DNA of 64,000 nucleotides from Fragum whitleyi. Taxonomy: Eukaryota > Mollusca > Bivalvia > Cardiida > Cardiidae. The number at the start of each line of letters is the position of its first letter. The stretch's first letter is position 1. The translations under genes were made by a program, and so were the position numbers. The stretch spans positions 58,404,187 to 58,468,186 of the forward strand of contig OX411555.1 of assembly GCA_948146395.1 (NCBI GenBank), in the 5' to 3' direction. This document shows positions 2,094-44,500 of this stretch, one piece after another. Under the pieces are notes generated by a model that worked only from the letters and a program-made list of their open reading frames with translations, did no database searches and was not told the origin of the DNA.

Positions 2094-10107
<8,014 letters not shown>

Positions 10108-14660: not shown

Positions 14661-16021
14661 TTAGCTCCACTGGCTGAAAGCCACTGGGGCTATTGTCATG
14701 GCGTTGTGTCTGTCGTGCGTCCGTCCGTCCGTGCGTGCGGTCGTAAACTTTTTCTTTAAAAATCTTCTCCTCAGAAACTACTGGATGGATTTCAACCAAA
14801 CTTCACAGGAATGATCCTTGGGTGACCCTCTTTCAAAGTTGTTCAAGAAATTTTGATCCAATGAAAAACATGGATTTAATGGGCGTGGCTAATTTCCAAA
14901 TATGGTAAAAAGTGATTTTCCTCAGGTTCTAATTGATGGATACTGATTAAATTTTACATGAATGATCCTTGGGTGGCCCTTTATCAGTCTACCAAAAATT
15001 ATTGTGATTGGATGAAAAATATGTATTTTATGGGCAGAGGTCATTTCTCTATATGTTATATAGTGGAAAATTTGCAAATCGTTTTCTCAGAATCTAACTG
15101 AAAGATATCAAGCAAACTTTACATGAATGATCCTTGGGTGACCCTTTATCAGTCTACAAAAAAATATTGTGATCAGATTAAAAATATGTATTTTATGGGC
15201 AGAGGTCATTTCTCTATATGTTATATAGTAGAAACTTTGAAAATCATTTTCTCAGAAGGTAACCAATAGATATCAACCAAACTTTACATGAATGATCCTG
15301 GGGTGACCCTTTTACTGTCTACCAAAAATTATTGTGATTGGATGAAAAATATGTATTTTATGGGCGGAGGTCATTTCTCTATATGTTATAATAGTGGAAA
15401 CTTTGCAAATCGTTTTCTCAGAATCTAACTGATAGATATCAACCAAACTTTACATGAATGATCCTTGGGTGACCCTTTATCAGTCTACAAAAAAATATTG
15501 TGATCAGATGAAAAATATGTATTTTATGGGCGGAGGTCATTTCTCTATATGTTATAATAGTAGAAACTTTGAAAATCATTTTCTCAGAATGTAACCGATA
15601 GATATTAACCAAATTTTACATGAATGATCCTTGGGTGACCCTTTATCAGTCTACCAAAAGTTATTGTGATTGGATGAAAAATATGTATTTTATGGGTGGA
15701 GGTCATTTCTCTATATGTTATATAGTGGATACTTTGAAAATCATTTTCTCAGAATGTAACTGATAGATATCAATTAAACTTCATTAGTATGATCCTTCGG
15801 TGATCCTGTATCATTCAGCCAAAAATTATTGTGATTTGAAGAAAAGTATGTCTTTTATGGGTGGAGGTCATTTCTCTATATGTTATAATAGTGGAAACTT
15901 TGAAACTCATTTCAACATCAGTAGAAGCCAAAATTTTTAAAAATCTAGTCAAAACTTAGATTTTCTATTACAAGAAATTCAAGCCTGTGGAGCGACACAA
16001 GCCATTCATGGCTTTCTAGTA
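14661..16021 (+). mobile_element. Tandem-core element, ~163-bp units
   Basis: Head 'agctccactggctgaaagcc', continuing to 'actggggctattgtcatgg', then GTCGTGCGTCCGTCCGTCCG. Seven to eight units follow ('catgaatgatccttgggtga', 'gaggtcatttctctatatgt'). It ends 'gtggagcgacacaagccatt'. A fragment of the same family abuts IDUA exon 23178-23302. Confidence 0.75.
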
Positions 16022-20416: not shown

Positions 20417-20562
20417 CTATGAATTTTCACATGTGTTTGTAAACTTTCTCTTCTCCCTATCATCAGGGTATTTTGCTGGTAAAGAATATCCCCCGTAGTT
20501 AGAAAAGTAGTCCACAGCTCGTACTTTATAATATCCAGTAACTAGGTCATCTAGCAATGTTC
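20417..20562 (-). CDS. IDUA: IDUA terminal coding exon
   Basis: Acceptor 'caatgtatttcag' ends at 20563; starts in phase 1 (two bases complete a Gly codon). Encodes [19 protein letters not shown], the beta-sandwich C-terminus matching human SGSYRVRALDYW, then a polar tail and TAG at 20419-20417. Confidence 0.93.
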
Positions 20563-23500
20563 CTGAAATACATTGCGTAATTGATAATTGATCCAGCAAT
20601 ATAAATCAAATATAAAGAATTGTAGTTAAATATACGAAGGACAACAACCACCAATTAGTGTTAGTTCCTATTTGTATTCACATCCTTGAGAGAAAATACA
20701 TAAAACTCACTGCTACCCATTTCAACACAATGAAGGATACATTATCCTATTATTACAAAATACAATTTTTATTTCCCCAAATCCTGAAGGACAAACTAAC
20801 GCTCATACACAGACTTGTCATAGTGTAATCTATGTCTTGCTCACCCCAAGCAGGCTCGACAATAAACATTGAATATAATAAAGAAATTGCTTGTGATAAG
20901 CAATTTCTTGTTTTTCAGTTATTTTTTCCAAAGCTTTTTTGTGATGGGCATAAGAAATAGTGACTGTGACAATCAGAGGTACAGATAGGAGGTCAAAAAG
21001 GAGGCGGTAAAGCCAGCCTTAAATCTTTATTTCTCTATGAAACCCTATGCTGTAGCTACTCATTTGATTAGTCTTCATGAGACTATTCCAATGAGTACCA
21101 ACAACATAGGGTTTATGCTACAGTTATTGAAATACTTTGGTCTGAAATCCAAATTACTCCCTCTAGTGGAAGTGTGCTGAGCCCATAACCCAGAGGTCTG
21201 AGGATTGGAACCTCGCTCTGCTACCATTGATGAACTTGCTCTAAACAACACTAGACACTAATTTTTGGTTTAAACTTTATTCAGTTCACTTATTCAAGTT
21301 GCCTCCATTCACATTGTTATTGCCAATAAGAAGAGTATTCAAACCCTGAAACTCAAGCGGAAATAATAATGATGACCTCAGTAGTTACTTCCCTTACTAT
21401 GGTTTTACATTAACATGTTCAACAGCTTACCTAACACTGGCTTTGGAGCATACGCATATGAGGTTGTGTGTTTGAATCTGTTATGTTCAACAGCTTACCT
21501 AACACTGGCTGTGGAGCATACACATATAAGGTTGTGTGTTTGAATCTGTTATGTTATGTTCAATAGATTACCTAACACTGGCTGTGGAGCATACACATAT
21601 GAGGCTGTGTGTTTGAATCTTTTATGTTATGTTCAACAGCTTACCTAACACTAGCTGTGGAGCATACACATATGAGGCTGTGTGTTTGAATCTTTTATGT
21701 TATGTTCAACAGCTTACCTAACACTAGCTGTGGAGCATACACATAGGAGGTTGTGTGTTTGAATCTGTTATGTTATGTTCAAAAGCTTACCTAACACTGG
21801 CTGTGGAGCATACACATATGCGGTTGCGTGTTTGAATCTGTTATGTTTTGTTCAATAGCATACCTAACATTGGCTGTGGAGCATACACATATGAGGTTGC
21901 GTGTTTGAATCTGTTATGTTTTGTTCAATAGCTTACCTAACACTTGCTGTGGAGCATACACATATGAGGTTGCGTGTTTGAATCTGTTATGTTTTGTTCA
22001 ATAGCATACCTAACACTGGCTGTGGAGCATACACATATGAGGTTGCGTGTTTGAATCTGTTATGTTATGTTCAACAGCTTACCTAACACTGGCTGTGGAG
22101 AATACACATATGCGGTTGCGTGTTTGAATATGTTATGTTATGTTTAATAGCTTACCTAACACTGGCTGTGAGGCATACACATATGAGGTTGCGTGTTTGA
22201 ATCTGTTATGTTATGTTTAATAGCTTACCTAACACTGGCTGTGGAGCATACACATATGAGGTTGCGTGTTTGAATCTGTTATGTTATGTTCAATAGCTTA
22301 CCTAACACTGGCTGTGGAGCATACACATATGAGGTTGCGTGTTTGAATCTGTTATGTTATGTTCAACAGCTTACCTAACACTGGCTGTGGAGCATACACA
22401 TATGAGGTTGGGTGTTTGGATCTGTTATGTAATGTTCAACAGCTTACCTAACACTGGCTTTGGAGCAAACACATATGAGGTTGTGTGTTTGGATCTGTTA
22501 TGTAATGTTCAACAGCTTACCTAACACTGGCTGTGGAGCATACACATATGAGGTTATGTGTTTGGATCTGTTATGTAATGTTCAACAGGTTACCTAACAC
22601 TGGCTGTGGAGCATACACATATGAGGTTGTGTGTTTGAATCTGTTATGTTATGTTCAACAGCTTACCTAACACTTGCTGTGGAGCATACACATACGAGGT
22701 TGCATGTCTGAATCTGTTATGTCATGTTCAATAGCTTACCTAACACTGGCTTTGGAGCATACACATAGGAGGTTGTGTGTTTGAATCTGTTATGTTATGT
22801 TCAATAGCTTACCTAACACTGGCTGTGGAGCAAACACATAGGAGGTTGCGTGTTTGAATCTGTTATGTTATGTTCAATAGCTTACCTAACACTGGCTGTG
22901 GAGCATACACATATGAGGTTTTGTGTTTGAATCTGTTATGTTATGTTCAACAGCTTACCTAACACTTACTGTGGAGCATACACATACGAGGTTGTGTGTC
23001 TGAATCTGTTATGTTATGTTCAATAGCTTACCTAACACTGGCTTTGGAGCAAACACATAGGAGGTTGCATGTTTGAATCTTTTATGTTATGTTCAATAGC
23101 TTACCTAACACTGGCTTTGGAGCAAACACATAGGAGGTTGCGTGTTTGAATCTGTTATGTTATGTTCAATAGCTTACCTATCACCGGCTGTGGAGCATAC
23201 ACATATGAGGTTGCGTGTTTGAATCTGTTGACAGACGTAACGGTCTGGTATGAACCTGCATCTCCACTTTTGGAGAAAATTACTTCATAGGTTAAAATAC
23301 ACCTGTTAAAATACAGAAAAATTTGATTGGAATCCATCCAGTACTTTATGAGGAGAAGATTTGTAAAGTAAAAGTTTACGGACGGACAGACGCTTGCACG
23401 AATGGACGCACAGACGACGGACACCCCGCCATGACAATAGCCCGCTGGCCTTTCGGCAAAAGGAGCTAAAAATTACTCACACTTTCAATGAATTAGTGAA

Positions 23501-26500
23501 AGTATCGTAAATTTCAAATTTAAGTGGTTTTTAGAGTCCAAAAGTGGTGTTTTTACAATTTCTTCATTTTTTACAATATTTTCTCAAATATAAAGATCAC
23601 AGGAATGTGAAAATCCCAGGATGGTACAAGAAAAAGTTAAATAGGTGATGAAACATTGCGTTATACTTGTAACTTCAAAAATGAGCTAAAATATGTGTCA
23701 ACACCTTTTGTTTGCCATGAAAATGAAGCCATTATTGACCTAATGATTCACATACACTAAAATGTATATGTGGGACCTATATCTTACTTTTTATACACCC
23801 AAGGGGTCATATTATGTTATCGTCTGTCCGTCTGTCTGTCCGTCTGTCAGTCCGTAAGCAAATTCGTGTCCGGTCCATAACTTTCAAACTATAAGGCCTA
23901 TGGTCTTGATACTTCACAGGTGTATAGATCTCATACTTAGGGTGTGCAAAGCGCAAGAACCACAACTCTACCATTTGTAAATTTTTGAGTTATTGCCCTT
24001 TGTTTGATTCATTCAGCAAATTCGTGTCCGGTCCATAACTTTGAAACTATAAGGCCTATGGTCTTGAAACTTCACAGGTGTATAGATCTCATAGCTAGGG
24101 TGTGCAGAACATAAGAACCACAACTCTACCATTAGTAATTTTTGAGTTATTGCCCTTTGTTTGATTCAGTTAGCAAATTTGTGTCTGGTCCATAACTTTG
24201 AAACTATAAGGCCTATGGTCTTGAAACTTCACAGGTGTATAGATCTCATAGCTGGGGTAAAAAGCTCAAAACATCACTAATTTATTTCTGAGCTTCGGGC
24301 AATAATGCCACACCCAGTGTTGCTCTTGTTAAAAGAAGGATAAACATCATCATGAGCAGGGCTCCCTGAGACAGAAAGTTAGCCAAGTCCAGTTAAAATT
24401 TTGAAAGGACTGCTAAATTGCTACAAATGTTTCAAAACAACCAAATTTGTAACATCTGCCACCATCAACAACCAATTTAAGACATTACTACATAAGGGTG
24501 TGCCTACAAATTATACACAGTAATTCATGTGTAAAATAAATGATATATAAAAATATATATATTTATTATTGGTAAGTGATCAAAACAAAGTAACTACAGC
24601 TTGACAAAGCTGCAGTTAGGTTGTAATGATCAATCACCAATACATAAAATATCATTTTTATTAAACCCATGTTTTTTGTGGGTAATTGAAAGGCAACCCA
24701 TCACCACATATCTCATGATTTTACACATAACTACAAATTATCAAAATCGTCGCAAGGTATCCGATAACTAGCATATCTCTACTGTCCAGTTCTTCAACAG
24801 TACAGGTGAGTGTATAAATCATAAAGCAGTAAAGTTCTGCTATTGATACACATTAGAAACCAATTCAAATTATTATATTTCAGGAGCCCTGATCATGAGT
24901 ATATAAAGATAATGCTGCATTGTATAAAATTTTGGTGCTTCAATATAAAACCATAATGTATTTGTGGCCTATCACACAAAAAGGGACCATATGGATAGTG
25001 CGTTAATTGTCAACCCTAGCTAGTCAAACTGTTTGGCTTTGCAGACTGACAAGGGTTGAAACTTTCAAAGTTAAATTTTCTGCATCTAGAATGATCAATT
25101 TGCCTTCCTGTGAAAGAATATTTGAAATGCAACCTCTGATTGACCTGTACTAGAACCAATCCATTTTTCAAATATTTATTTTACAGATCTCCCAGATAGT
25201 CCCTTTTTGGCATGATGGGTCACATCTTTAAACGTTGTGCATGGACTTAACATTTCCAACAATTTAAAATGTGTAAAATATTAAAGGATCATTTATGGTC
25301 CCTACAAGAAACATCTCGTAAGTTCCAAAAAAACTATCATCAACATAATATTCTGAATAATATCCAACTACAGGGTTTGACACTAAGGGGAGTCTGGGAG
25401 TCTGAGACTCATTATTTTCCAGACAGGACTCCTTTATTTTGCAATTTAGGGGTCAAATGGTCTCCTTGGGAATATTGTGACAAAGATATGAGTAGAGCCA
25501 TTTCATTTTTGCTTTTATGGATAATGTTTGTCTGCATGAACTGGTAACTTTGAAAGAAAACCATCTTATACTTGGCAAGGAAATATTGTGGAAAAGAAGA
25601 AAAAGAAGAAATTGCTTGTGACTAAACTGTGGCAAAGAGGACTAAGAATTAATAATAATTGTTGGATTTGTTATTCATAACAGAGCTACAGATAGAGGCG
25701 TATTTTGGATTCAAAATAAAATTATTTCAACATTTCTTGCACAAATCATATATTGTGGGTAATCACTGGAATTGTCTCATCAAGACAATTCAATTGAGTA
25801 CCAACTACATAGATTTTAAATGAGAAAGAAAGCTGTTAGACTAGGAAAACCCCTTTATTCTGTAACTCCGCATAGGATTAGATAGCTACCTAGAGTTTAT
25901 ACAGTTATCTGACCAAGTTAGCAGTATCTGACCAGATGTTATGTTGTATATAGTAACACCATTCACCTAAAAAATAAAAGTGCATACATTATTTAGTGAA
26001 TTTTTAGCTTTCTAGTCAAGTTAGCAATATCGCCAACAATGTAATGTGGTTTGGAGAAATATCATTGACCTCTATTATAAAGTGCATTAATAGTTGAATG
26101 AATATCTAGATATTCTAGATATATAGTGTTATTTTCAGAATTGAAAATAACATGGATTATTTTTGCGATGTGCGTGGCTGGTTTCCTTGACGACGATTGC
26201 CGAGTGAAATCGTCAATCTCCGTAATCCGTGACCCGTATGTCGTCTGCTATATAAACCCGTGCATCGACGAAATCATTCTCTTTTTACTAACACGCGATA
26301 CAAGATATTAACCCACCCACCCATTCCCAAATAATAATTTTTGGCAAATTTCACAATAAGGCAATGATTAATTCAATAATATCTATAGAACATGTTTGCT
26401 CTCGATTTCTGTATCGTTTCAGGTACAACCGTCGCCATTGTTGTTTAGGAGAAAACTATCGAGCTCTCGGATGCTGGTGGTGCTGTTATCTGAAAAGAGA

Positions 26501-29500
26501 CTTATGACTAATTGATTGTTTTATTTCATTTTAATGTCGCGGTAGGGAGATAGATATTATATGACACGTCACTGAGAGATCTGGGCTCGTTTGGCAACTT
26601 GGGCTACTGGCATCTCCTTTTGTCAAGCAAGCAAAACATTCATCGGTAACGCTTACGTGCAACTCCTTTTACTAATGAATGAGCGTGAACGTAGTATGGC
26701 TGCATTATATGACGGGAATAGAAAGTTCGGTACTAGCATTAAGCGGTGAACTGCACACAGCATGAACTCCTCTGTTTATTAGAAATCGGCGAATGGTCAC
26801 ACCGAGTAATATTTTCATGCAAACCGGACCTTTGGTGTCCAGTGTAACGAGTTATGTTTATGCATCCAGAGTCTCAGGTGCTCTGGCTCTGCATATGTAT
26901 TGTTTTGGCTAAAATGATGCTCTGTATTCTGCACACAATTGGTTTTTAAGCGACCAAGAATTATCGGTCTGCATGAATACAAGTAATATGTGGTGTCTAA
27001 GGTGCACCGTGTCCTGGTGTCTAAGGTTCACCGTATGTTTTGTGTGCCGTGCATCCTGAGTCCCAGGTGCTCTGGCCCTGCACGGCTATGGTCTTGGTTT
27101 AAGAGTGGACTGTATTCTTGAAAGATTTGTCTTGAGAAAACCGTGAAATAGTTCTTGGCCATCATGAATACAGGGAATGTATTGGTGTCTATGGTACACA
27201 AGGTCCTGGTGTCTAAGGTTCACCGTTGCTCATTTAGTGTGACGTGCATCCTGAGTCTGAGGTGCTCTGGCCCTGCATGTCAGTGGTTTTGTTTAATAAT
27301 GCTCTGTCTTCATGCAGATGATGAATTATGAGTGGCCAATACATAAGGTAAGCATGAATACAAGCTACAAGTGTCAAAGGTACATAGTCCTGGCGTCCAA
27401 GGTATGCCATACGTAGGTCTGCAGTTCACCCCTCAATACATGTATATAATGATGTCTACTAAACTAGCTGTGGTTTTGTAAGGTATATCTATCATGAAAA
27501 CAAGTCATACATAAGAAGGTTCACAACGCTTGGCTTTCAGTGCCATTCATTTGTCTAACAAGCCTAGTACCGTTCATTCCATACCTTTTGCAGCTATTGC
27601 ACAACTATTAAGTTAATTCGTATCCGATAATTTCAAGTAATCAAAATTCATATGCAAAGATCAAGTACTCACAATCATGGGCGGAAAATTCTTCGTTAAA
27701 TTATCTCAATAAGTAATCGACGATGTTTGGGTATTGTATAGCAGCGATGTCGGTCACACAAAAGCAGTATCGTCTGGGTGCTTAAATGCACAGCTCCGTT
27801 CATACTGCTCTAATCTCCCTACCGCGATCTTTCGCCAATTTTGAAATTCCATGTACATATGAGTCAAGCCCATAGTCCATGGGCTATATTATATGAATAT
27901 ATGACACACTGTGTTGTGTTTTGAATTCGTCATAAAATAATCACTAATTCCTGTATCCAGGATGACAAAACAGTGCAAACTGTTTGCAAATTATACTCCT
28001 CTTTGTATGTAAACTTACATGCTAAGCGGGGTATAATTTGTGAATAGTTTGCACAGTTCTGTCATGCTGAAAGCGGGCCATGTTAACAATTCCTGCCCAG
28101 CCCATTCTTCAGAATGGCCAAGCGATGCCAACTGTTTGCAAATTTCTGCCCCACCCTGCACATGAACCTGCATACAAAGGGTTGTATAATTTGCAAACAG
28201 TTTACACCATTTTGTCATCCTGAACACAGGGAATGTTGACAGTATCTACCAAAATTTTACTAGGTACACTTATGTGGCCCATCATCATGGGAAAAGGGAC
28301 CATCTGGAAACTCTGTACAATTAATATTTGTAAAACAGATTGATTCTTCTACAGGTCAACCAGAGGTCGCATTTAAAACATTCTTTCACAGGAAGGTAGA
28401 TTGATCATTTGAGATTCAGTGAACTATTAAAATGCAAAAAGTTTGAACCATAGTCAGTCAGCGCAGTCTGACTAGGGTCGACACTTTACACTAATCCCTC
28501 ATTGTACCTTTTTTTCATGACAGGTCACATATAGTATCATCATTCACCCATAAAATAAAGTGCATAAATTATTGAGTGTTTACTAATTTATATCACATAA
28601 AGTGCATCAATTAAGTGTTTATTAAGTTATATGACCAAGTAAGCAGTATTTTCCCAATTTTTTTTTATAGTTTTTATCACCATAAGTCACCTATAAATAA
28701 ATACACAAATTGATTAGTCTGTATCTATTTATCAGCTATATTAGTTATATATGTGCCAATGTAATGCTATATATGGTGATATCAGTCATCAGTTAGAATA
28801 AAGTGCATCATCAAATATGTATATACAAGTATCTATCAGTTAAAGTTGGTCTCTGTCGCTATGTTCAATCGTTTTGTATCCAGGAGTTTTCTACAGAGGG
28901 GAAGCCCCCTCAATTGGATTTGAAAAACAGGGGTTGATAGCAGAGTTTATGATAATTATTCCATTCTTTTCAACTGATTATTCTTATTGTATTAATAATG
29001 ATATAATTGTAACTCAAGCACTCTGCATAAAAAAAGAACTTCATTTCCAATAGGCCAGAAGAAACAGAAAGAATTTACTGCACATACTCTGCCAATCAGT
29101 TCCCTACATATTTTTACATGGACACTTGAAACTGGGGATCACTTTAAGATACTTGCTATGATCATGGTTATAAATAAAGATGAAAGAAGCTACTTTTACC
29201 AAGAGCAGTACTTTAAACAAGCTTATTTCTCTAATATTCATTCTTCTTTTTAAATTTTTCTTCAACTCCATCCATACTAATTTTGGAAGGCATCCGATCC
29301 ATAAGCTAGCTTGAGAACCAAACAATTTAGAAGACTTGGGCCTGTTTTGCTTAGATCAAAAATTAAACTTGCTTCTACAGTAGTAATTAAATAGAGGATA
29401 ATCGTTTGTTTCCGTGTAAGATCGATTTATATTTCATTGAGTGAACAACAAAAGCCATATTTTCACGAGTGGCAGAGCCACGAGTGAAAATATAGCTTTT

Positions 29501-32500
29501 GTTTTTCACGAAATGAAATATTAATCGATCTTACTCGAAAACAAACGATTATTCTATTTCTTTAATGCATAAATGAGACAAAATGTGAAATTTCTAGGAC
29601 ATATTTTCGTAAAGCGCGTCATTTTGCACGTGATTGTTATGCAACGTTCATTGTGACGTCACTTATTTCGCCCTGCATAATTAGGATGAGATGCACAAAA
29701 GCAGGGTATAAGTTTTTGATAATTTCACTGCTTTTGCAGTGAGATTATCAAGTGATAATCTACCAATATTTCTCGATAAACCACCGAAAATCATTAAAGA
29801 AATATGACAATTCTAATGAGATATTGCTTGGCAGAATCTAACAATGAGTGAAAACACTAAGTACGATTTGTGATTTTGACTTACAATAATTTTTTCTTAA
29901 GAAGTTTAATGAAACAGGCCCCAGATTGTTAAATAGAAAGTTTTGATCAAATCCTGATAATTGCAATTAACCAGAAGTTCATGTCAAAAGGTGATATCAA
30001 TTCAATAAATATGATCCGCTTTGCAAAAAAGGGACCATCTTGATAGTGCCTAAAGTGTCAACCCTAGTCGTACAGTGCAGATTGACTGGGGTCGAAACAT
30101 TTTTTCACACTACTAATATTCTGAATCTAAAATGATCAATTTACCTTTCTGTGAAAGAATCTTTGAGATTCGACTCCTGGTCGATCTGCACTAAAACCAA
30201 TCTCTTTTTAAATTATTTTTTTAAAGGAGTTTGCAGATGGTCCCTTATTAAGTGATGGGTCATAAATATATTATTGTAACAATAAGCCTGCTGGATGAAG
30301 GAGTGAATTGCTCTAATCAGGATTGCAACATATAGTTAGTTACCAGACTTTGATATAGCCTACCTGGTTTGGAGGAAATGCAGGTTTTGAACATCCATGT
30401 ACCAATAATACACTTGGCTCATTCAAGGCTATACTTGCTATTTGGCCTGTACCCGCTGTTTGTTTTTGTACATACAGTAACTTGGCACCCTATAAATAGA
30501 AGATAATGAAAATTTGGACATTTAATGCAAGTTTAATTTAATTTTCAGTATGATCATGAAAGTTTAATTTCATTGCTCAATGGAAGCAATTTTGAGTTCA
30601 AAGCCATTTTGTTAGCATACATACAAAGTTGTTCCAAAAGAAATCTGTCTCTATATTGATAAATCTTTGCACTTTTTATTCATGAGATTAAATTACAAGA
30701 TATGAAGAGACTCATTGTTGATTCCATTGAGTTCTGAAACTCAAAACATATCACTGTAATATATGAATTTGCTTCCCAAATTCATTCAGTGTGATTAGAT
30801 TTTTAGTTTCATATATCCATGAAATCAACAAATACTCTCTTCATCTCTCTAAATGAAATGTAGGTTTAGAACATGAACATACAATAAATGAATCAATAAT
30901 TTGTTTTTGTACCTAACAATCAAGTGTAGGACCAATGTTTAAAGTAACATAATGTGTTTGGTTGCCTTTTTCATAAATGTTCAACATAATTATAAGGCAT
31001 TGAAAAATGCCCTTGACTGATGACCTTTAAAGTGGTTCTAACAGAAAGGTCTTTTAATACTACTCATGTAAAATATGAAGGCTCTATCCCTTACCAATAG
31101 CCAAAGCTAAAGTTTTTTTTGAAACAAACAGAAAGGTTATAAAGAATATCCCCATGATCCATCAATGTTTGGGGCATACAAATATATAGTTTGTAACAAA
31201 TATGTCAATATAAGAAGTTTTTCATAATGTTCAAGGATGATGACATACAATGTAGTTGTTGGATGAATGTAAGATTGATAAGTTCTTCATTATTTTAACA
31301 AAAGAGTTATTGTTCTTGTGCACTGCACTCGTAATCTTGAGAGGAATATAACTGCCATGTTTCAAGCCAATAAGACCTAAAATACAGAGTTATCCTCCTG
31401 ACTAAGAATTGGACCCTCAGCCTCGTCGGACCTCAGACCTTGTATTTGGCATGTGATTGCATAATAAGTCCCGTGGACAGGGCTGTAGAAATAAATGATT
31501 ATGCTATAATTTTAATGCAAAAATGAGATAAAAAGTGGGGTTTTTAAGTAAAATGCTATACAAGCATAAAATTTCTTACATGATTGCCAAGATTTTTTAT
31601 GGACTTGTGGGTATAATGGGCCCTGCTAATATGATGTTAACCCTTGTCATGCTGAATAAATTTTAGCTAAAAATTTGCATCAAAATCAAAGGGCAAAAAG
31701 CACTGAAAGTACCAACTGTAGGTCAATTTTTATTTGAAAACTAAATCTTTTGACAATTCTGGTTTGAAAGTGAGAAACGGGTGGTGTAGACTAACATCAG
31801 ACTGCACATATGTGCAGGCTGATGTTTGTCTATAGCTCCTGCCAAAGGAGGAATATTCCGGGTTCAGCATGACAACGGTTAAAAATGGTGACCTAAGAAA
31901 GCTAGGTTAATCTTTTGGTAATTACACTGGTTTTGAGGTGAGATAACTGAGACATAATCCTTTGAAAAATCAGGAAAATTTGCTGAAATGCATTAAAGAA
32001 AATACTCAAAACTTTGTTTAAACAATCAAGCTAAATTAAAAGTGAGCCTATGTGAGACATTTCCAACAATTTGAAATGTGTGCGAGGTCCAAACATTGAG
32101 CAGCCTAGACAGCCACATACTGTAAATATGAAATTACCTGATGGTCTCCTGATACTTTGAGACCTTATTTATTTACTAAATGCATAGTGAAGACTCTGGT
32201 CAGACTGTGCGGATGCACAGGCTGGTCAGAGTCTTTGCTTTGCGCATATTTGAAATTGTTGGAAATGACACCCACAAGTAAGATCTAACCTCCTGTGCTC
32301 TCATCAACTCCATCAGGTTTCTATCTGGGTATGGGGGTTTGCCTGCCCTCAACCACAGTCCATAGGGGTTGGAAATGTAATTATCACACAACCAAAATGC
32401 CACCATAAAATCTTCAAAATATAAACAATTAAAATTATTATTAATGGGCAAGGAAAACCCCATAACTAAAACATGAATAAAGTTAGGAGGATTAAGTTTC

Positions 32501-35500
32501 CCAACAACATTTGTACTTTGTTTTTTCTGCATTCTACAATAAATCATAACAATTGGAGATGTAATTATCACACAACTAAAATGTTAGCATAAGTCTACAC
32601 AAACATTTTACAAAACATTTTGACATAATAATGGCTTTCCTACTCTCAACTACAATCCAAAGGGATAGGAGATTTTATCATCACAACAAATTTGCACAAT
32701 ACAAGTTGCAATGTTTTACAAATTCTCTTAAAAATCGTAATTATGATCTGTACAATACCAGTTGGAGCTACAGATAGAGGGGGTATTTTGGATTTCAAAT
32801 AAAATTACTTCAATATTACCAGTACAAAACCTATATTGAGGGTAGTCATTGGAATCATCTCCTTGAGACAATTCAAATGAGTACCAACAACATAGGTTTT
32901 AAATGAGAAAGAAAGATGTTAGACTGGAAATACCCCCTCTTATCTGCACCTCTGGTTCATTTTGGGTTTTACGCCAAACAACTTGCCATCAAAGCCCCCA
33001 GTTGATCATCCCACTGATTTATCATTCACCTATAGGTCCTGACAAGTTTAAATGGACAGACAAAAAGACACACTCTTGCACATACACCACACTGTAATCT
33101 TGATATGTTTGTTGCAACATGAAGGCTTGACGAAAATGCTTTATCACTTAAAGCCAAAATGTATCTACCAAAATATTTGTCTCTAGATATACCATACATG
33201 TTTATTAAATTCTCTAGCTTCTTTGTAATTTCTATGGATAGCTTGTTTGTATTTTATATGAAAAGATATTGTGATACTGGGAGATATTGCTTGCGAAAAA
33301 ATTGTTGTCCTTTTATGGCAATGATTTGTATCCTATATAGCTTCTTTTCTAAATTTAACTGACTTTGAATTTTCATCTGTTCCTTATTTCAATTAGGATC
33401 AATCAACTACAATTTTATTGTCTGAGAGCAGTATATACCTTTTGAGACCCACTCTGGAGGTTGGATGTCAGCAAATATGTCCAGTTTTATCACTCCAGTA
33501 TTGGAAGCTGTGTCATTGCTAAAGTACACCAGTGTAGAGAACTGCCAACTGAAAGGAAATACAATACTTTTTTGTTGAGCCTTTGCATGTTGGATAAAAG
33601 TCTTTGTAAAAATTGCATAAAAATCAAACTACTGAAAGCACTGCATGTGCTAATTGTGACTCCGTCTTTCTTTTAAAAATGTATTTGTCTGAGCATTCAA
33701 CTTAATAAGGAATTCCAAATTGTAAAGACTAAGATATGTGCAGGCTGATCTTTGTCCAAACCTCCTGCCAAAGCAGGAATGTAATCTGGGTTCATTATGA
33801 CAAGGGTGCTAGATAGTGGATAAAAATCTAAGTTGATAAAGGGGCATAATTAGCACAAAATGCATGTACAGTTACCCTTCGTGATATTACAGGTTGCTCT
33901 GCTGTTTTGCTTTAGATACATATCATAAATCATTGAAGTTTTGCATGATGCTGACCTCAGGTTTTCTTAGTAAACAGCCAAGCTTAAAATGGGAAAGTCT
34001 CTCTATTATGCAGTTAAGAAGATAATTTATGTTCCCTTTCAGTTTGTAGAAAATGTATCGATCCTCTATAGTATTTGGAATACTAAAATGCTATCTTGTA
34101 TCAAATGTAAAGGAATTACCTATCTGCTGTATTATTTGTATCAGGTACATGAATGCTACCAAGGGCATCCATCTGTTTGGTATATAGACTCAGACCTGAT
34201 GTAAATAATATAATTCTGTATGAGATCAATGCAATAGAATTAAAACACAATTACAACAATCTAATTGTTATCATTTCAGGATAAAATTGACCATCCCGAT
34301 GTCTTTATGTTCAACTAGATTGTATTCATGTCAGATTGAAATCTAGCCAGATTCAGAACTGGACTAGTTGAATTTTGAGTCTGACTTTTGTCTAGACTGA
34401 TCTGGAATCTTTCAAGTCAAAATTTGATTTGGAAAAGCCTGAATCTGGATCTAGTTAGATTTCAATCTGGACTTTGACATCTATTTGGTAAAAACTTCAC
34501 TCTCACTTAATTAAAAAAAAAGAGTTTCCTCTAAAGATCACAAAAGGAAATTCTAAGACTGACCCCTTGATCTAATTTCTGAACCCACTTGACCCAACTT
34601 CTCACTTGCCTGACACATCATGAACACAAACACTCATACCAAGTTCATAGACTTTTGAGCCCAAAATGTTGCCTGGGGCACACAAGGTTGTTCTAAGATT
34701 TCAACCAAGACTGATATTTTAAAGTGGGCAAAGATTCTGACCAAGTTTCAAACTATTTGAGCATGGGGACTCTAGTATGCACTAAAGGATTTTCTATGAT
34801 TTGACCTCTTCAACTTATTTTTACCCTTCTTAATCCATTTTCAAACTCATCAAAGATTTTGTTTAGACAAACAATTTGACCAAATTCCAAGGATTTTGAG
34901 CCCAAAATGTGGTTACTAGAGTGCAAACAAGTTTTTTTCTAAGATTTGACCTCTTAACCCCATTTTGACACCACTTGACCCATTTTCAAAGTCATTCAAG
35001 ATATTAAGTAAACATATTACATAGACATACATTGTGACCAAGTTTCAAGACATTTGAGCCAAATATGTGGCCTCTAGAGTGCACACAAGATGTTGGTGAA
35101 CAAAGGACAGGGAGGCTGGATGCAAAAGTGTGATCCTAAAAGCTCCAAACTTGCATTGAAAATGCTCAAATCATCCATTTCATTTGCTGGTGTTGATCTG
35201 GCAGCATATGAAAGTCAATGGAGACAATTCAATCGTTTTAAAGAAAAGAACATCATTTAATCAGAAGAAAGTAATATAAAATCAACTATTTAATCCAAAT
35301 TGCTCATATCTTCAAAAACCCTCTAATCCCATCTATCTAATATTATTTCAAAATAATCCCAAATTGATTACCCTTGTAAATTTTAAGATTGTAGTATACT
35401 GAACAAGATAATTTATTTCCTTTTTACAAAAATGAAAATGAGAAAATTCCAGTTATCATAAAGCATTTATACTAAAAGATTTCAATGCCCATGGCATTTA

Positions 35501-38500
35501 TTCAGAATAAAGTCAGAGCTACACTTCAAAACCCAAAGCTGTCCTTAACAACCATTGGTATGAATGACCATATCTTGGTCAGCCTTAGGCTAGTTCCTTA
35601 AGAAAGTTTTACCTTCAAATTTAGTCTTCATCTCCATTTCTCCTAGCAATGCCAACATCCCCATAACAGCATGGACTGGTTTTTGAAAATACTGTGTATG
35701 AGGTGGACTGGTTGTGTTAATCTGAAATCTGGCTAGAAGGGTTCTCTGTGTAAACTGATGTGGGTACCAGCTCAAAAATGCATTGTCATTACTGAGGAGT
35801 GCATAGTTTTGTATAGCAGGGCTGGAATCCGATATGAAAGCTTTCTGGTGTTGAGTAATTATCTGTGATAAAATTAAAATAATGAAATGAGAAATGAATA
35901 TAACACTTCCACATTACACTACATAACACAACAAATACAGCCCTGCATTCGGGATGATGAAAAGGGAGCAAAAAGTTTGCCAATTATATTCCTCTTTGCA
36001 CACAAGTGCATGTGCAGAGCGGGATATAATTGAAAATTGTTCAAACCATTTTGTCATCCTGAATGCAGGGCTGGACACATTTTATATCTCTATGGATGTT
36101 TTCGGTAGTTAAAGGAAACAAGAGGGCCAGAATGGCCCTAAATTGCTCACATGAATTTTATTGGTCCAGTGAAACCGATCCGGGAAACTTCCTATCATAA
36201 TTTCATTCACATTTGCCTAATTGTTGAAGAGGAGATGTTATTCCAAGAATTTAAAGTGAAAATAGACCCTGTCCACCCATGCCATTCATTACTGAGTAAA
36301 CGCAAAATAAGCCTCACCCTGTCACAACCATATTTATAGGCCAATCAAAATTTTGAAAACAAATCTTGAAGAAGGTCATCAAAGGAACATTCTGGTAAAG
36401 TTTTATTGAAATCAGCCAAGTGGTTCAGGAGGAGATGTCGTTCAAAGTTTTGGGGTTCAAAATAAGCCATGCCCTGCCACACCCATATCTATGGACCAAT
36501 CAATATTTCAGGAACAATTTTTGAAAAGCTTCCCCCAAGGAACATTCTGGTAAAGTTTCAATGAAATCAGCTCAGTGGTTCAGGAGGAGATGTTGTTCAA
36601 AGAATTCAAAGTGAAAAATGCCCTGCCCTGTCACCCCTATATTATGGGCCAATCAGAATTTTGCTAACAATTTTTTAAAGAAGGTCATCCAAGGATCATT
36701 CTGGCAAAGTTTCATTGAAATTGGCCCAGGAGAAGATGAAGTTTTCATGATTGTTGACGACGGACAATGGATGACACATGACACACAACAGACAACGCAC
36801 AACAGTCTCAGGGTTATCTTAAAAACTCCCCTTGAGCAAGTTTTGCTCAGGTGAGCTTAACAGTCCCTACATAAAAATTTTCTTATTTTTTCATACATGT
36901 TTTTTTTTTAAAAATTCAATGACGAGGACCAAAATACAATAATATGGTACCGGAAAAGTAAACAGTGACTAAACATCCTGCTTCTTTGAAAAGGCTAAAA
37001 TGTTAAATCGATTCAAGAGGTTGTTATTTCAAACTGGAAAAAGATTTATAGCTATTTCTAAAAACTCTAATAAGCAATTTCTATTGGACAAGTATAGTCT
37101 GGCTGGGAAATGTCAACTGTTCTATAGCAAGACAAAAATTTTTCATTGTGTTGTAATGATATTCAGAAATAAGAATGCGTTTTTGTTGGTCCCCCCATAA
37201 GTTTAGTTCTCTGTACCCATATTTCTTCAACCTTATATAACCTACCTTGGCCACTATTGCAGCATATGTAGCATCAGCTCTCCAGCCTTCATCTCTAGAC
37301 CAATGAACAAGTGGATCTGCTTCACTGTATAGGAAATTATAAAGGACACATCTAAGTACTTATAAACTTTTAGTCAGGGTTTATAATAAATACTTTTTGT
37401 TTAAACAAGATGCATTAGTTTAACACCAATGCTCCTACCACTGCCATTTTTCAGAAACAGTAGTTTGATGTGATTTGGTAATCATCAGCAAAATTTTAAT
37501 TTCAATTCTGTAATCAACGGCAAATCTTTATTTAGTTTTGAAAACTTCCTTTACAAAAACTTCTCAGCCTCCTCAACCAATCTTGATATGCTTCCTAGAG
37601 ACAATTTCTTCTTTATTTTTTGTTAAGACTGAAAAGGGGGGATTGTCTTTGCCAATATGACTCAAATAATATTGAAAATAGTATTTAACTGTGTACAAAT
37701 ACTTTGTTATAACATAAGATTCTAAAAAAAAGAGTTAACCCTTGTCATGCTGAACCTAGAATAATGCTATTTTGTATGTGTGCGGCCTGATCTAAATGTA
37801 TACCTTCTGATTTTGATTTTTTAAACCAGAAGAGTTAGAAAATTGCTTTTAACAAATATATACAGGATCACAATTATCGCACCCAGTTCTTTTTTCACTT
37901 TGTTTTAATGCAATTTTATGCAGATTTTTATTGCACATGACAAGGATTAAGGTTATGAACACTTACTCATTGTAGAATGGTTTATCAGCAAGTGAAGGGT
38001 AGGCAAGTTTGATAAGTTTCATCAACTCTATCTCATCTCTAATTATTCTGTCAGATGTTCCCCCACCCTAAAAATAAAGATATTCAATATGTGAGGACAA
38101 CCTCGTTCAATTGCAGGGCTTGTGCTAGCTTTTAAAATTTGGGAGTCATTGACCCCTTGAACATAAAATTCTGGGGGTATAAAGCTGTTTTGTAGGGATA
38201 AAAAGAGAGCAAAACATGAAAACTTATCAGTCTCAAAAGTAATCTATATAACTGACACAACATAAACAATAAAATGTAGACACACTTTATTGTTTATGTT
38301 GTTTCATTTATATAGATCTTTTGCAATAGTATGAAGAAAACAATTGATCTGTATAATCTTTTATTCTGTTTAGGTTAGACCAATGGAAATTCAATGGGTC
38401 AAATGACCCCCTGAAGGAAATTTTTGATTGTCAAGATGGGATTTTGCAATTCCACAAAATATTAAGATATTTGTTTTCTTCTAATAGTACAAGAAGCCTC

Positions 38501-41500
38501 CTCTATGATTAAGCCTCAAATTGAGAAAGCCTCTTTTTCAGCAAAGCCTTTTCTACAACTCTTTTTCAAACATGTGGCTAACTATAGGAATTAGTGGCCT
38601 TGACTGAATGCAAGACATAGTATGAAAAGCAAAAGAAAGAAAGCTCTGCTGGGTGGTCATTCAACTTTTTCCGCTTTTCTTAACTTCCATTTGGATAACA
38701 ATCATAAATGATCCCAATGTAAGCTATCAAAAGGATATAAACCACCTTTGTTTGTGTATATCTTTATGTTTTATTTCTTTAATCTTGATAATCTAGATGT
38801 TTGAAAACTCGAACTTTCATCGCATTTGCAAGTTTTCTTCAAAGCAACTAGGTAGTAAACAGATTATTTGAATGAAGGCATACTTTGTATCTATAGGAAA
38901 CAACTAATTTTTTGTGCGGATGTCAGTGAAAAGCTTCTTTATATAAAAGTTCTTTCGTTATAAAATTTGAATATTCACAAAACCAAAAGAGGTTAAAAAT
39001 CTTTAAAAATGTATGTCGAGAATAAATTTTTACAGCCACTGACAGACGTCTACAATCAGCATAGTAATTGTAGGATTTACTTTCTTTGCCGAAAATGTTA
39101 AGTCAATGTTAAGTATACCAATCAAACTTCATAAATTACTGGCAATTTTATTTTGGGATTTATTCGGAAACAATAGTAACAATACATAAAGGTGTTAATT
39201 TTACAAAACAAGGATTGCAAACTGTTGAAATTTATAAGTACATTGTGTTAACTTAAAGAATAGTTTTACTAAAATTGATTGACTATATAAACTAATCTGT
39301 TGATGAACATAAGATCGTAACTACAGCTTCCATTAACTGGAGTTAGGTTGTTTTGTTGATAAAACCTTTTCCACCTGTGGTACACATATTTGAAATAAGC
39401 CTGAACATACAAATTTACCGTAGCGTGTTTTGTTTCGCGGCTTTCACGGGTAGTTATAATCCACGAATTTAAATAGACGCGATGACGGCGGCACTCATTC
39501 TTTCCGACTATTTGTCTCTCACCAATGGGTTGATAATCGTAAACCTATGTGAGATAGCGGCTGGAGGCTAGGAAAGAATCTGGTGGTTGTACTGGTGAGA
39601 GAAATACCAGGGATCCATTGTTAGGTGCTCCAGCCGCCGCGATATAACTGAAATAATGTTGAAAGCGGCGTTAAACTCCATTCAATCAATCAATCATTAA
39701 ATAGACGCGAAAAAGTCTGATATTACGAAAACGCAAACATTTCTAGCAGCGAACTTTTCTAGGTTTACAGTAATTGTAGAGGCCCATATGGAAGACTGGG
39801 TTAACCCAACTGTGTTGCCTCTTTAAATAAAGTCTTTATTATTATTACATACTTAATCTCAGCAGCATGCTTGTGGTATAATTAAAATATATGCAGACTG
39901 TCTTAGAGGACTATTGGTACAGGCACTTCTCATGACTTGAAGGTCATGAGCCCCGACATTATGGGGTTGTATTTAAGGGCAAATTGATAAATATCATTGT
40001 ATCCATCAGAATTAGTGCATTCTGATAGGCTCAAAAGATGGTTTCAACTCTCAATAAAAACAATTTTGAGTATGCAGCTATTTTGTAAGTTTGTCCACAA
40101 AGAAGTCCCATATCAAATTTGTGCTTTTTTTTGATAAATCTTTACACTTTTGCTTCATGATATTAAATAATGAGATATATAAAAAGAATATTTGTTGATT
40201 CCATGGATGTATGAAACTAAAAACCTAATAACATTCGTGTATGAAACTGCTTTGCATATTCATACATTGTGATAAGGATTTAAGTTTCATACATCCATGA
40301 AACCAACAAATACCCTCTTCATCTTATAAAAAAAAACAATTCTTAGCTAGCCACATGCTACCCAGCTGCTAAATTTGGTAGCACCAGTTTTAAGTCACTG
40401 CCTCTCTGTCAGGGACATAAAAACATTTGGATTGAGTGTTTGAGAGAGCACTATAAGCTTAAGCTTTCATCACAATCAAATTCAATTAAATTGGTATTAA
40501 CTAAAAATATGTGCATAGTTATAGATAACAAAGATATGACCACAAATTAATGTTTGCCATGCAAAGATGGCCAACAACCACATTAACCGCAAGGCACATG
40601 CCACATTGTGGTCTTTTATTCATTTCAATTTAAAAAGCCTAAAGTTTCTTTGGATAAAATAAAGGACAGAACAGGAAAAGGTTTATAACCACTCTAACCT
40701 TTCTATGAAAAGAGATGAAGTCCAGTCTGACTCCTTTTTGACCCGTAAAATAATTCACCCCCTCTACCACATGACGTAGCAAGGCATCAGCATATTTAGT
40801 ACTTTTACATCCATCCCCTGGACCACCAAACTTGAGTAACGGAGAAACAGACAGGAGTCCCTCAGAGCAGGCATCATAGTAATTCAGGAATCCTGGAATA
40901 GTGTAATAAAGATCATATAAACATAATAATTACAGGAAAGTAATGCTTTAACTCATTACCAGAGGTCAGCACTAACACCAGTCCTCGGGTCAGAGACCTG
41001 TGGATTTTAAGGAGGACTGTTAGAAGTAACCATGTTGCAGGTCCTTCAGGCCTGTAAGTAATGGTCATATCATTTCTAATCCATCTATTTCTTCTTCTTT
41101 TCAGTTGCCTTTCTAATAATAATGTTTTCATTAACTTATAGAAATCATTTTGGGAAAAGAAGAAATTGCTTGTCCCAAGCAATTTCTTTTTTCCCGTAAT
41201 ATTTTTCTTAATATTCCCTTCTAGATTGCTAAATAATATCCATAGTTTTCATGGAGGACCTGTTTTCATCAGGGAGGACCTGTGATTTTAAAGGCAAACA
41301 GGTCCTTCAGGCTTGTGGCAAAAACTTGTTAGTGTTGAACCATGATTACCAGGTGACAACATTTTAGATTGATCCATTTCAGATAATATTTAATTGATAA
41401 AAATTTAAAAGTTTGATAGTTATTGAATATTTTAAAATGCATGGATAAGATTTTAATGTCTCGTCAAAACCCTATATTGTGGGTAATCATTTGGTTTTTC

Positions 41501-44500
41501 TGTATAAGATGATTCTCATTAGTACATAAAACAAAGGCTTTTTACTGATATTGTTGATATGTCAATGGCTGTGCATGCAACAGTTGTAACTGCCTATAAA
41601 CATATAAGTTACAAATTTTTCAAGCAGAGCCATCAATATCTTTTTTTTAATTTACAATACTGTTTCTTTGGAATAAATATTTATCAAAGAGTCAACACAA
41701 AACTATTGTAAGTGCCTTTACAATTATAGGCACTTACAATAGGTTTGAGCTGATTTGTCTGAATGGGTTTTATGCCGTTTTCAACAACCTTTCAGTGATA
41801 TCTAGCTCCTAACAATGGATTCCTGATATTTCTCATGCCAAAAAATCCTTTCCAAGTCTCCAGCTGCTATCCCACATAGGAATACCATTATCAACCCATT
41901 GGTGGAAGACATAGTCAGAAAGGTTGAGTGCCACCATCAGGAATCAACCTTCCTGGGACCCTTTGAATGACAGACACACTACCAACTGAGCTATGACATT
42001 GACTATAGCATTGGGCTGTACCCCCTATATACCTACCCTGTACAGAAATGAGTAGATCATCAAAGTCATGACAATGGCTGTAGTTTTGTGATGTACCCTC
42101 TATATACCTACCCTGTACAGAAATGTGTAGATGATCAAAGTCATGACAATGGGTATAGTTTTGTGCTGTACCCTCCAGATACCTACCCTGTACAGAAATA
42201 TGTAGATCATCAAAATCATATCAATGGCTGTAGTTTTATGCTGTACCCTCTAGATACCTTCCCTGTACAGAAATGTGTATATCATCAAAGTCATAACAAT
42301 AGCTGTAGTTTTGTGCTGTACCCTACATATACCTACCCTGTACAGAAATGTGTAGATCATCAAAGTCATGACAATGGCTGTAGTTTTATGCTGTACCCTA
42401 CAAATACCTACCCTGTACAGAAATGTGTAGATCATCAAAGTCATGACAATTGCTGTAGTTTTGTGCTGTACCCTACAAATACCTACCCTGTACAGAAATG
42501 TGTAGATCATCAAAGTCATGACAATTGCTGTAGTTTTGTGCTGTACCCTACATATACCTACCCTGTATGGAAATTTGTAGATGATCAAAGTCATGACAAT
42601 GGCTGTAGTTTTATGCTGTACCCTCTAGATACCTTCCCTGTACAGAAATGTGTAGATCATCAAATTCATGACAATGGCTGTAGTTTTGTGCTGTACCCTC
42701 TAGATACCTACCCTGTACAGAAATGTGTAGATCATCAAAGTCATGACAATGGCTGTAGTTTTGTGCTCTACCCACCAGATACCTACCCTGTACAGAAATG
42801 TGTAGATCATCAAAGTCATGACAATGGCTGTAGTTTTGAGGTGTACCCACCATATACCTACCCTGTACAGAAATGTTGAGATGATCAAAGTCATGACAAT
42901 GACTGTAGTTTTGTGCTGTACCCACCATATACATATCCTGTACAGAAATGTGTAGATCATCAAAGTCATGACAATGGCTGTAGTTTTGTGCTGTACCCTC
43001 TAGATACCTACCCTGTACAGAAATGTGTAGATGATCAAAGTCGTGGCAATGGCTGTAGTTTTATGCTCTACCTTCTAGATACCTACCCTGTACAGAAATG
43101 TGTAGATGATCAAAGTCGTGGCAATCAGGTTCATTCCATGTCTCAAAGTTCCATTCTGACACATAACCTAGTCCATACTGATCTGAAAATTACACAGAGA
43201 GGATTGTATGACCTTCCCTCTCCCCTCAACTTATTATACTCTTTTACACTTTTCTCTTCCCTTTAATCCCCGTATCAAATTTACTTTCTAACAGAATTAG
43301 AAAAAATATCTACTTTATAATGATATGATCATTTCTTTGCAGCATTATATATGGCAAAAGTGTGAAATATGTTTTCAATATTTCTGAATTTATTTACAAA
43401 CACTTTCATTATTTAATCTATTATTTCTACCTTAATATAATTGGTACAAAACTTCAAAAGACAATTGTTATAAATTGATTCATACATTACCACTTTGAAA
43501 CCCTCATTTTCATACAATGAGAGAAAATAGATTCACATAACATTGTTTGAAAAGGTGAACTTGTTTATAACTTTTCCTCAAACATATTTACAATCCGAGA
43601 TGAGATATTTGCCTACCCACATATCTTTGGGCCACCTGTGTCACCAAGTCTTTCCACAACGCCACATCATTGTGAAGATCAAAATTTGTAAAAATTCCTC
43701 CTGGATTGCCCATGAACTCAAATCCTGGCTTGAGCCCGTTCTCATAGACAAGATCTAGGAGATTATCAAGGGCTGTAAAGTTATAAATGGGGGTACCATT
43801 CACAAATCTGTAATAGAAGCAATTAAAACAGGTTACAGCAAATGCTGATTTTTTTCAAATCTTCTGGTTACTCTACTTGTCACTTTCTTATTTTTCTTTG
43901 TTTTGTCCTTAACAATAAACCTAGAAATGTGACCTGAACCATGATAAGCTAGAATTGTGTCACAGATATTGATTTCTTTAATGCTTTTTGATGGTTTATC
44001 GAGACATAAAAGTAGATTATCACTTGATAATCTCACCACAAAAGCAGTGAAATTATCAAAAACTTATACCCTGCTTTTGTGCATTTCATCCTATCTGACG
44101 TCACCTATGCAGGGCGAAAAAAGTGACGTCACGATGAACGTTGCATAGTAATCACGTGCTGACGCGCTTTACAAAAATATGTCCCTGAAATTTCACATTT
44201 TGTCTCATTTTTGCATGAAAGAAATAGAATAATCCTTTGTTTTCGAGTAAGATCAATTTATATTTCATTTTGTGAACAACAAAAGCTATATTTTCACTCG
44301 TGGCTCCACCACTCATGAAAATATAGCTTGTGTTGTTCACTCATGAAATATAAATCAATCTTACACTTAAACAAACGATTATCCTCTATATCTCTGCAAA
44401 TATTGCCTAACAAACTTTTCAGATTACAACAGAACTTATTTAGGGCAACAGCTGTCCAAAAATCCAGACCAAACCAGTTTTATTGTTTGACAATCATCTG

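Follow-up and report, generated by a model that had tools for sequence, protein, structure and literature searches.

The last intron of the gene for the enzyme alpha-L-iduronidase (IDUA) studied here contains 24 tandem copies of the junction between exon 14 and intron 14. This array, called array B, is very probably a mirage, that is, a minisatellite lying over an exon-intron boundary. It is likely to have grown through tandem duplication over the splice site, and splicing is predicted to take it out in one piece via the first donor. The finding is confirmed and its kind, the mirage, is a known one; what is added is scale, as donor and acceptor arrays occur on several genes of one genome of 1.22 Gb.

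Two donor arrays in the IDUA gene

The window, by which we mean the whole 64-kb stretch of DNA analysed, carries a gene that a sequence-only reading had named IDUA, and the name stands: the seven best matches show 58-62% identity and cover 70-76% of a partial query, and the four named ones among them are all bivalve (Mactra, Mercenaria, Mya and Dreissena). These relatives suggest a heterodont bivalve as the source. Four IDUA relatives, three of the named ones and one other, were matched to the window exon by exon with tblastn. In the resulting model exon 9 (34195-34120) was placed via frame and splice sites, and a second, shorter placement is also open. The features concerned, all on the minus strand, are as follows.

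20417..47162, minus strand: IDUA gene, 15-exon model of 650 aa plus stop (tblastn of four relatives and splice-site joining)
20417..20562, minus strand: IDUA exon 15, the last, phase-matched to exon 14 (tblastn and splice-site joining)
21415..23229, minus strand: array B, donor-spanning minisatellite of 73 bp in 25 copies, one of them within the exon and 24 intronic (TRF and unit cutting)
21415..21545, minus strand: the two most distal copies of array B, the 68-bp one lacking one AACAT pentamer, followed by native intron (unit cutting)
23172..23177, minus strand: authentic, exon-proximal donor of intron 14, GTAAGC (gene model; U1 duplex -9.4 kcal/mol)
23178..23302, minus strand: IDUA exon 14 of 15, the penultimate, 125 nt, its 3' end repeated (homology of ...PQPVIG to relatives; flanks AG and GTAAGC)
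41993..43125, minus strand: array A, donor-spanning minisatellite of 75 bp with donor GTAGGT, 15 copies, 14 intronic plus the exon's own (TRF and unit cutting)
42999..43050, minus strand: 52-nt tract identical to the end of exon 4, spanning array A's first intronic copy together with the preceding 8 nt (sequence comparison)
43087..43182, minus strand: IDUA exon 4, source of array A (homology to relatives)

TRF called array B at 21415-23229 with a period of 73, 24.9 copies, 93% matches and a score of 3007, and cutting the units at ATTCAAAC-like starts gave 25 copies. The 1.8-kb donor array of about 24 units that had been claimed behind the exon at 23178-23302 is thus real, 24 of the copies being intronic and one the exon's own. 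In the range first given for it, 21415..23302, the array part is right, but the range takes in the whole 125-nt exon. Each unit takes in 47 nt of the exon 14 end and, past the boundary, the donor with some 20 nt of intron; the make-up proposed earlier (exon end, GTAAGC, intron) was correct, while its sizes of ~72 bp for the unit and ~50 nt for the exon part needed small adjustment. Full 73-bp copies contain about 26 nt of the intron start, donor included. The spacing is 73 bp in 23 of 24 cases and 68 bp in the most distal one. Similarity to the exon is not restricted to one or two units, which would have told against this build: the exon end recurs in every one of the 24 intronic copies, with 40-45 of its 47 bases identical to the exon, and the exact nonamer TAGGTAAGC (TAG followed by GTAAGC) is kept in 20 of them. 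When the copy within exon 14 is set against the consensus of the 24, two sites differ, which read as a synonymous CCG/CCA change and as Ile/Leu. As had been supposed, the array forms most of the last intron (intron 14, 23177-20563), namely 1,763 of its 2,615 nt.

It is extremely unlikely that collapsed or falsely repeated reads created the array in the assembly. The basis is a single assembly, which leaves some room for such an error, but the copies differ from one another (82 of 1,737 cells depart from the consensus) with local relatedness, the assembly has 38 contigs, and arrays of other sequence lie in other genes. A dispersed transposable element with internal repeats was rejected, since all 7 exact matches of a 28-mer from the unit in 1.22 Gb lie inside array B, and the unit thus does not have the look of a dispersed element; within the 64-kb window no diverged copy of the unit stood out. 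It is likewise extremely unlikely that the array represents a tandem duplication of the exon that provides alternative or mutually exclusive exons. Each copy does hold exon sequence, a donor and AG dinucleotides, but the whole exon was not duplicated, 47 of its 125 nt being copied without its acceptor, and retained copies run into a stop. Moreover, no array-sized insertion is present at the exon 14/15 junction in the 17 relatives aligned, of which three come from 2.2-2.3-kb contigs resembling transcripts.

Array A behind exon 4 takes up 1,094 nt of intron 4, which is 2,194 nt long. Both arrays have the same build with differing breakpoints and unrelated sequence, the periods being 73 and 75, and the earlier view that they are separate holds; comparison of the two unit consensuses gave no meaningful similarity (best match 11 nt, E about 0.3).

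Arrays of this build have been described in amphioxus, where minisatellites called mirages lie over exon-intron boundaries in Adh3, in the globins BflGb6 and BflGb9 and in PGBD5, and where splicing was apparently unharmed by RT-PCR and length instability was reported (PMC3087553, PMC3902484). The IDUA arrays are like them in having tandem boundary copies with AG/GT signals in many of them. In array B, 24 of 24 intronic units combine sequence from both sides of one splice site, exon and intron, GT is found in 24 of 24 intronic copies of array B and 11 of 14 of array A, the units of 73 and 75 bp fall within the 10-160 bp of the amphioxus mirages, and neighbouring units are alike in array B. The amphioxus mirages occur at donors and acceptors, and both edges are likewise involved in the present genome. 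The numbers of copies differ, the BflGb6 haplotypes described having 6 and 3 whereas here there are 24 intronic copies in IDUA and 30 donors in alpha-actinin. Amphioxus is a cephalochordate, whereas the present animal is likely a bivalve, with two donor arrays in one gene and further arrays sampled genome-wide, all known from DNA alone.

The tandem repeats of human F7 intron 7, which begin at the donor, also resemble the IDUA arrays. Internal tandem repeats of human segmental duplications are comparable in that some lie at exon-intron boundaries and alter intron length or splicing (PMC2812944). The gene-modifying ones described there have units of 30 bp on average in 4 copies and belong to recent paralogs, whereas the IDUA arrays have units of 73 and 75 bp in 24 and 14 intronic copies. 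The available portions of a paper on earthworm metallothionein with intron minisatellites (PMC12783039) and of one on gastropod hemocyanin (PMC7931591) contain no boundary-spanning repeats. No mirage of a mollusc or bivalve was found among the open-licence papers listed, and absence from print is not claimed.

Donor choice and its predicted consequences

Most of the copied donors are predicted to be as good as the original. In array B 20 of the 24 intronic donors have a predicted U1 duplex of -9.4 kcal/mol, the same as the authentic donor, and in array A 11 of 14 reach -11.6 kcal/mol. The IDUA frame of 650 aa is open in the gene model only when the exon-proximal donor of each array is used. 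On the other hand, use of any downstream donor in silico leads to a premature stop (24 of 24 in array B, 14 of 14 in array A). For array B the distance from this stop to the last junction, which follows it, is 50 nt if donor 2 is used, 123 nt for donor 3 and 1,724 nt for the most distal donor. The period of 75 in array A keeps the reading frame, yet its first unit has a TAA, and so the downstream donors still give a stop. Since every downstream donor does so, IDUA mRNA can work only if the first donor is chosen or the copies are skipped in some other way. Splicing would use the first, exon-proximal donor, with predicted removal of the whole array. Against this stands the behaviour of model constructs with identical competing donors, in which a downstream one is often preferred. 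Each array can be considered a natural experiment in which the spliceosome chooses one among up to 30 near-identical, regularly spaced donors, and in IDUA any choice except the first would ruin the protein.

A comparable case in human is IFI6 (6-16), where a minisatellite repeats the splice donor beside an exon, as in IDUA, and so provides multiple splice donors (Turri et al. 1995, cited in PMC4526556). In IFI6 two of the downstream units reportedly serve as donors and give rise to isoforms (PMC4526556), whereas in IDUA every downstream donor gives a stop in silico. The arrays thus differ in what a downstream choice would produce. The IFI6 unit is also said to be short.

The stops could suggest that array B is functional, its 24 decoy donors tuning IDUA output via premature stop and nonsense-mediated decay, and the fact that all downstream donors of both arrays give a stop would fit such a role. 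This is nevertheless very unlikely. The stop arises from ordinary intron sequence, unrelated genes hold arrays of the same build, and conservation is not clearly higher in the donor columns than elsewhere in the unit. Departures from the consensus in the donor columns amount to 4 of 216 cells in array B and 4 of 126 in array A, and column windows that vary as little as the donor 9-mer or less number 8 of 65 and 18 of 67, respectively. The 9-mer is neither unusually conserved nor eroded, and there is no clear sign in these columns of selection keeping or purging the intronic donors. Such unremarkable variation is what would be expected of neutral copies.

Likely growth and turnover of the copies

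We propose that a short tandem duplication spanning the splice site would be the founding step of such an array, and that unequal exchange or slippage among the copies could then make it grow. With the exon-proximal donor used, the mRNA would be unchanged and the array near-neutral. A duplication across the boundary alters no codon if the exon-proximal site is used, and hence exon edges can hold arrays while exon interiors cannot; as the mRNA is left unchanged, such arrays can grow. The exon copy, held by selection, may in addition reseed the neighbouring copies.

Growth by exchange among copies is consistent with their order in array B. Neighbouring copies differ by a mean of 4.33 sites, a value reached in 1 in 10,000 order shuffles, and this likeness of neighbours would be expected from unequal exchange or slippage. 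Hairpin-driven growth was considered and rejected: one copy per array, folded on both strands, folds no better than shuffles (z -0.01 to 0.81).

The evidence on reseeding is divided. In array A the 8 nt before the first intronic copy read ATTGCCAC, as in exon 4, whereas the 14 other tails differ from it and read ATTGTCAT or a further variant. Because the 52-nt tract with ATTGCCAC is common to exon 4 and the first copy, exon 4 is the likely source of that stretch in the adjoining copy. The most exon-like copy of array B is not the one next to the exon, which has 67 of 73 positions in common with it as against 71 of 73 for a mid-array copy, and this speaks against simple reseeding. Among 15 arrays genome-wide the exon-distance gradient is negative in 13; RGS7 and Alg6/8 (only two measured copies each), CSE1 (no TRF call) and L054 are outside this test. 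After dropping the distal copy, 7 gradients are negative and 6 positive in the 13 arrays still long enough. The gradient, which thus vanishes and is carried by the degenerate far end, was therefore discarded as proof of reseeding. In 11 of the 15 arrays the copy nearest the exon resembles it more than the middle copies do (Wilcoxon p 0.026, post hoc and uncorrected). As the neighbouring copy of array B is not especially exon-like and the gradient is due to the far end, reseeding by the exon copy is suggested only weakly.

Arrays of the same build across the genome

The whole assembly (1,224,646,155 bases in 38 contigs) was searched for arrays with repeated splice motifs. The donor motif triple AGGTAAGT gave 167 matches as compared to 65 for the reversed motif, the places examined being those listed first, on C1-C9. 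A dispersed 57-bp satellite, present at L045 (G000:C2:93260500-93269500) and many other places on C1-C9, dominates these matches. The count was for this reason rejected as proof of donor enrichment, and the arrays were read one by one. A second donor triple, CAGGTAAG, gave 63 matches, which represent 14 arrays. With the 57-bp satellite set aside, the two scans yielded at least 19 distinct donor arrays. In 4 of these 19 the array's first copy runs on from an exon whose homology is clear.

Donor array: alpha-actinin exon, E 7e-11, 30 donors at exactly 60-bp spacing
Donor array: RGS7 exon, 3e-10
Donor array: ropporin-1-like exon, 4e-14
Donor array: tousled-like kinase 2 (TLK2) exon, 1e-16

One more is weakly similar to a monocarboxylate transporter (NCBIfam 1.4e-3, far below the curated score), and 4 of the 19 (L041, L050, L053 and L054) are exon-like by acceptor and frame only. 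No PDB match was found for L043, L050 and L088, and no Pfam match for L041, L043, L050, L055, L056 and L088, L053 having weak ones only.

The alpha-actinin array (L038, G000:C2:1724500-1733500, minus strand) lies at 1727148-1728895 on a CH-domain exon and has 98% matches by TRF. Its 20-codon unit is open in frame, and downstream donors would therefore add 20-aa repeats and not a stop; a regex search of the 9 kb of L038 found no neighbouring actinin exons. L053 and L054 (G000:C9, near 43.54 and 43.69 Mb) are related donor arrays of about 60 bp on coiled-coil-like exons some 150 kb apart, and either one array was carried along by gene duplication or these are two separate arrays.

The acceptor triple TTTTNCAGG gave 59 matches, falling into 23 arrays, as against 38 matches of the reversed motif. 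Exon homology at the 3' edge was seen in 5 of the 23.

Acceptor array: dynamin exon, 2.5e-15
Acceptor array: M49 peptidase exon of DPP3 type, 1.1e-16
Acceptor array: ankyrin exon, 1.2e-7
Acceptor array: PARP exon, 2.9e-7
Acceptor array: Alg6/Alg8 exon, 8e-6

Two further acceptor arrays are weaker, those of CSE1 (4.2e-4, below the Pfam cut-off) and GDE1 C2 (0.015), and in another (L079) the exon was recognised by eye only. Raw counts are not striking, either for these acceptor matches or for the donor motif, with 14 arrays as compared to 9 for its reverse. Since like arrays are present in other genes, the two in IDUA give the impression of having arisen separately through a single process that runs genome-wide and appears to act at both exon edges.

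Minisatellites could also arise anywhere in the genome and touch exon ends by chance, exon edges being nothing special. In favour of such chance contact, there is no or an unclear exon in 10 of the 19 donor arrays and in 15 of the 23 acceptor arrays (one of the latter covered only in part). A sample drawn with motifs unrelated to splicing bears on the same question. Two such motifs gave 9 and 7 arrays, i.e. 16; the first was chosen as the donor motif reversed, and the 40 matches obtained on reversing the second are outside the sample. The period is 50 or more in 8 of the 16 arrays and less in the other 8. Four arrays are mirages, all with periods of 72-81 bp and thus 4 of the 8 with a period of 50 or more.

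Neutral-sample donor array: FIBP exon, Pfam 1.3e-6
Neutral-sample donor array: laminin-EGF exon, 1.2e-7
Neutral-sample acceptor array: F5/8 type C exon, 1.4e-5, a value short of the cut-off set by Pfam
Neutral-sample acceptor array: last copy runs into an open exon with no database match

The remaining 12 of the 16 are not mirages, which again fits chance; 11 of them were judged via frame and by eye, and L081 also via Pfam. L081 (G000:C1:89075700-89077000), a 78-bp, 12-copy array within one long open frame with no useful Pfam match, is probably a protein-coding repeat and no mirage. Against chance, 4 mirages in 16 exceed the 7.6% share of unit-length junction zones in the IDUA gene (one-sided binomial p 0.03) and an assumed genome share of 3.5% (p 0.002), in a reading that was not blind and had a small n of 16. 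Chance contact alone is, on this evidence, unlikely.

A broader proposal, the mirage genome, is that a large share, perhaps half, of the minisatellites of 50-100 bp are born at donor or acceptor exon boundaries, where splicing would hide them and the exon copy would reseed them. We advance it tentatively, rating it slightly below an even chance; it would supply the cause of the arrays' apparent concentration at exon edges. If true, exon edges would be places where minisatellites and decoy splice sites continually originate and from which introns grow. A preference for exon edges would also offer a simple rule for how introns grow, how decoy sites arise and perhaps how new introns originate.

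The window contains other repeats. Arrays with units of 155-170 bp lie at 5699-6825, 14949-15912, 50706-51692 and elsewhere. The one at 5699-6825 (160 bp) was considered as a further mirage and rejected, its context being repeat-element-like with no exon seen. The 4 kb at 52000-56000 have a strongly positive AT skew (0.19 to 0.39) and may represent a mobile element.
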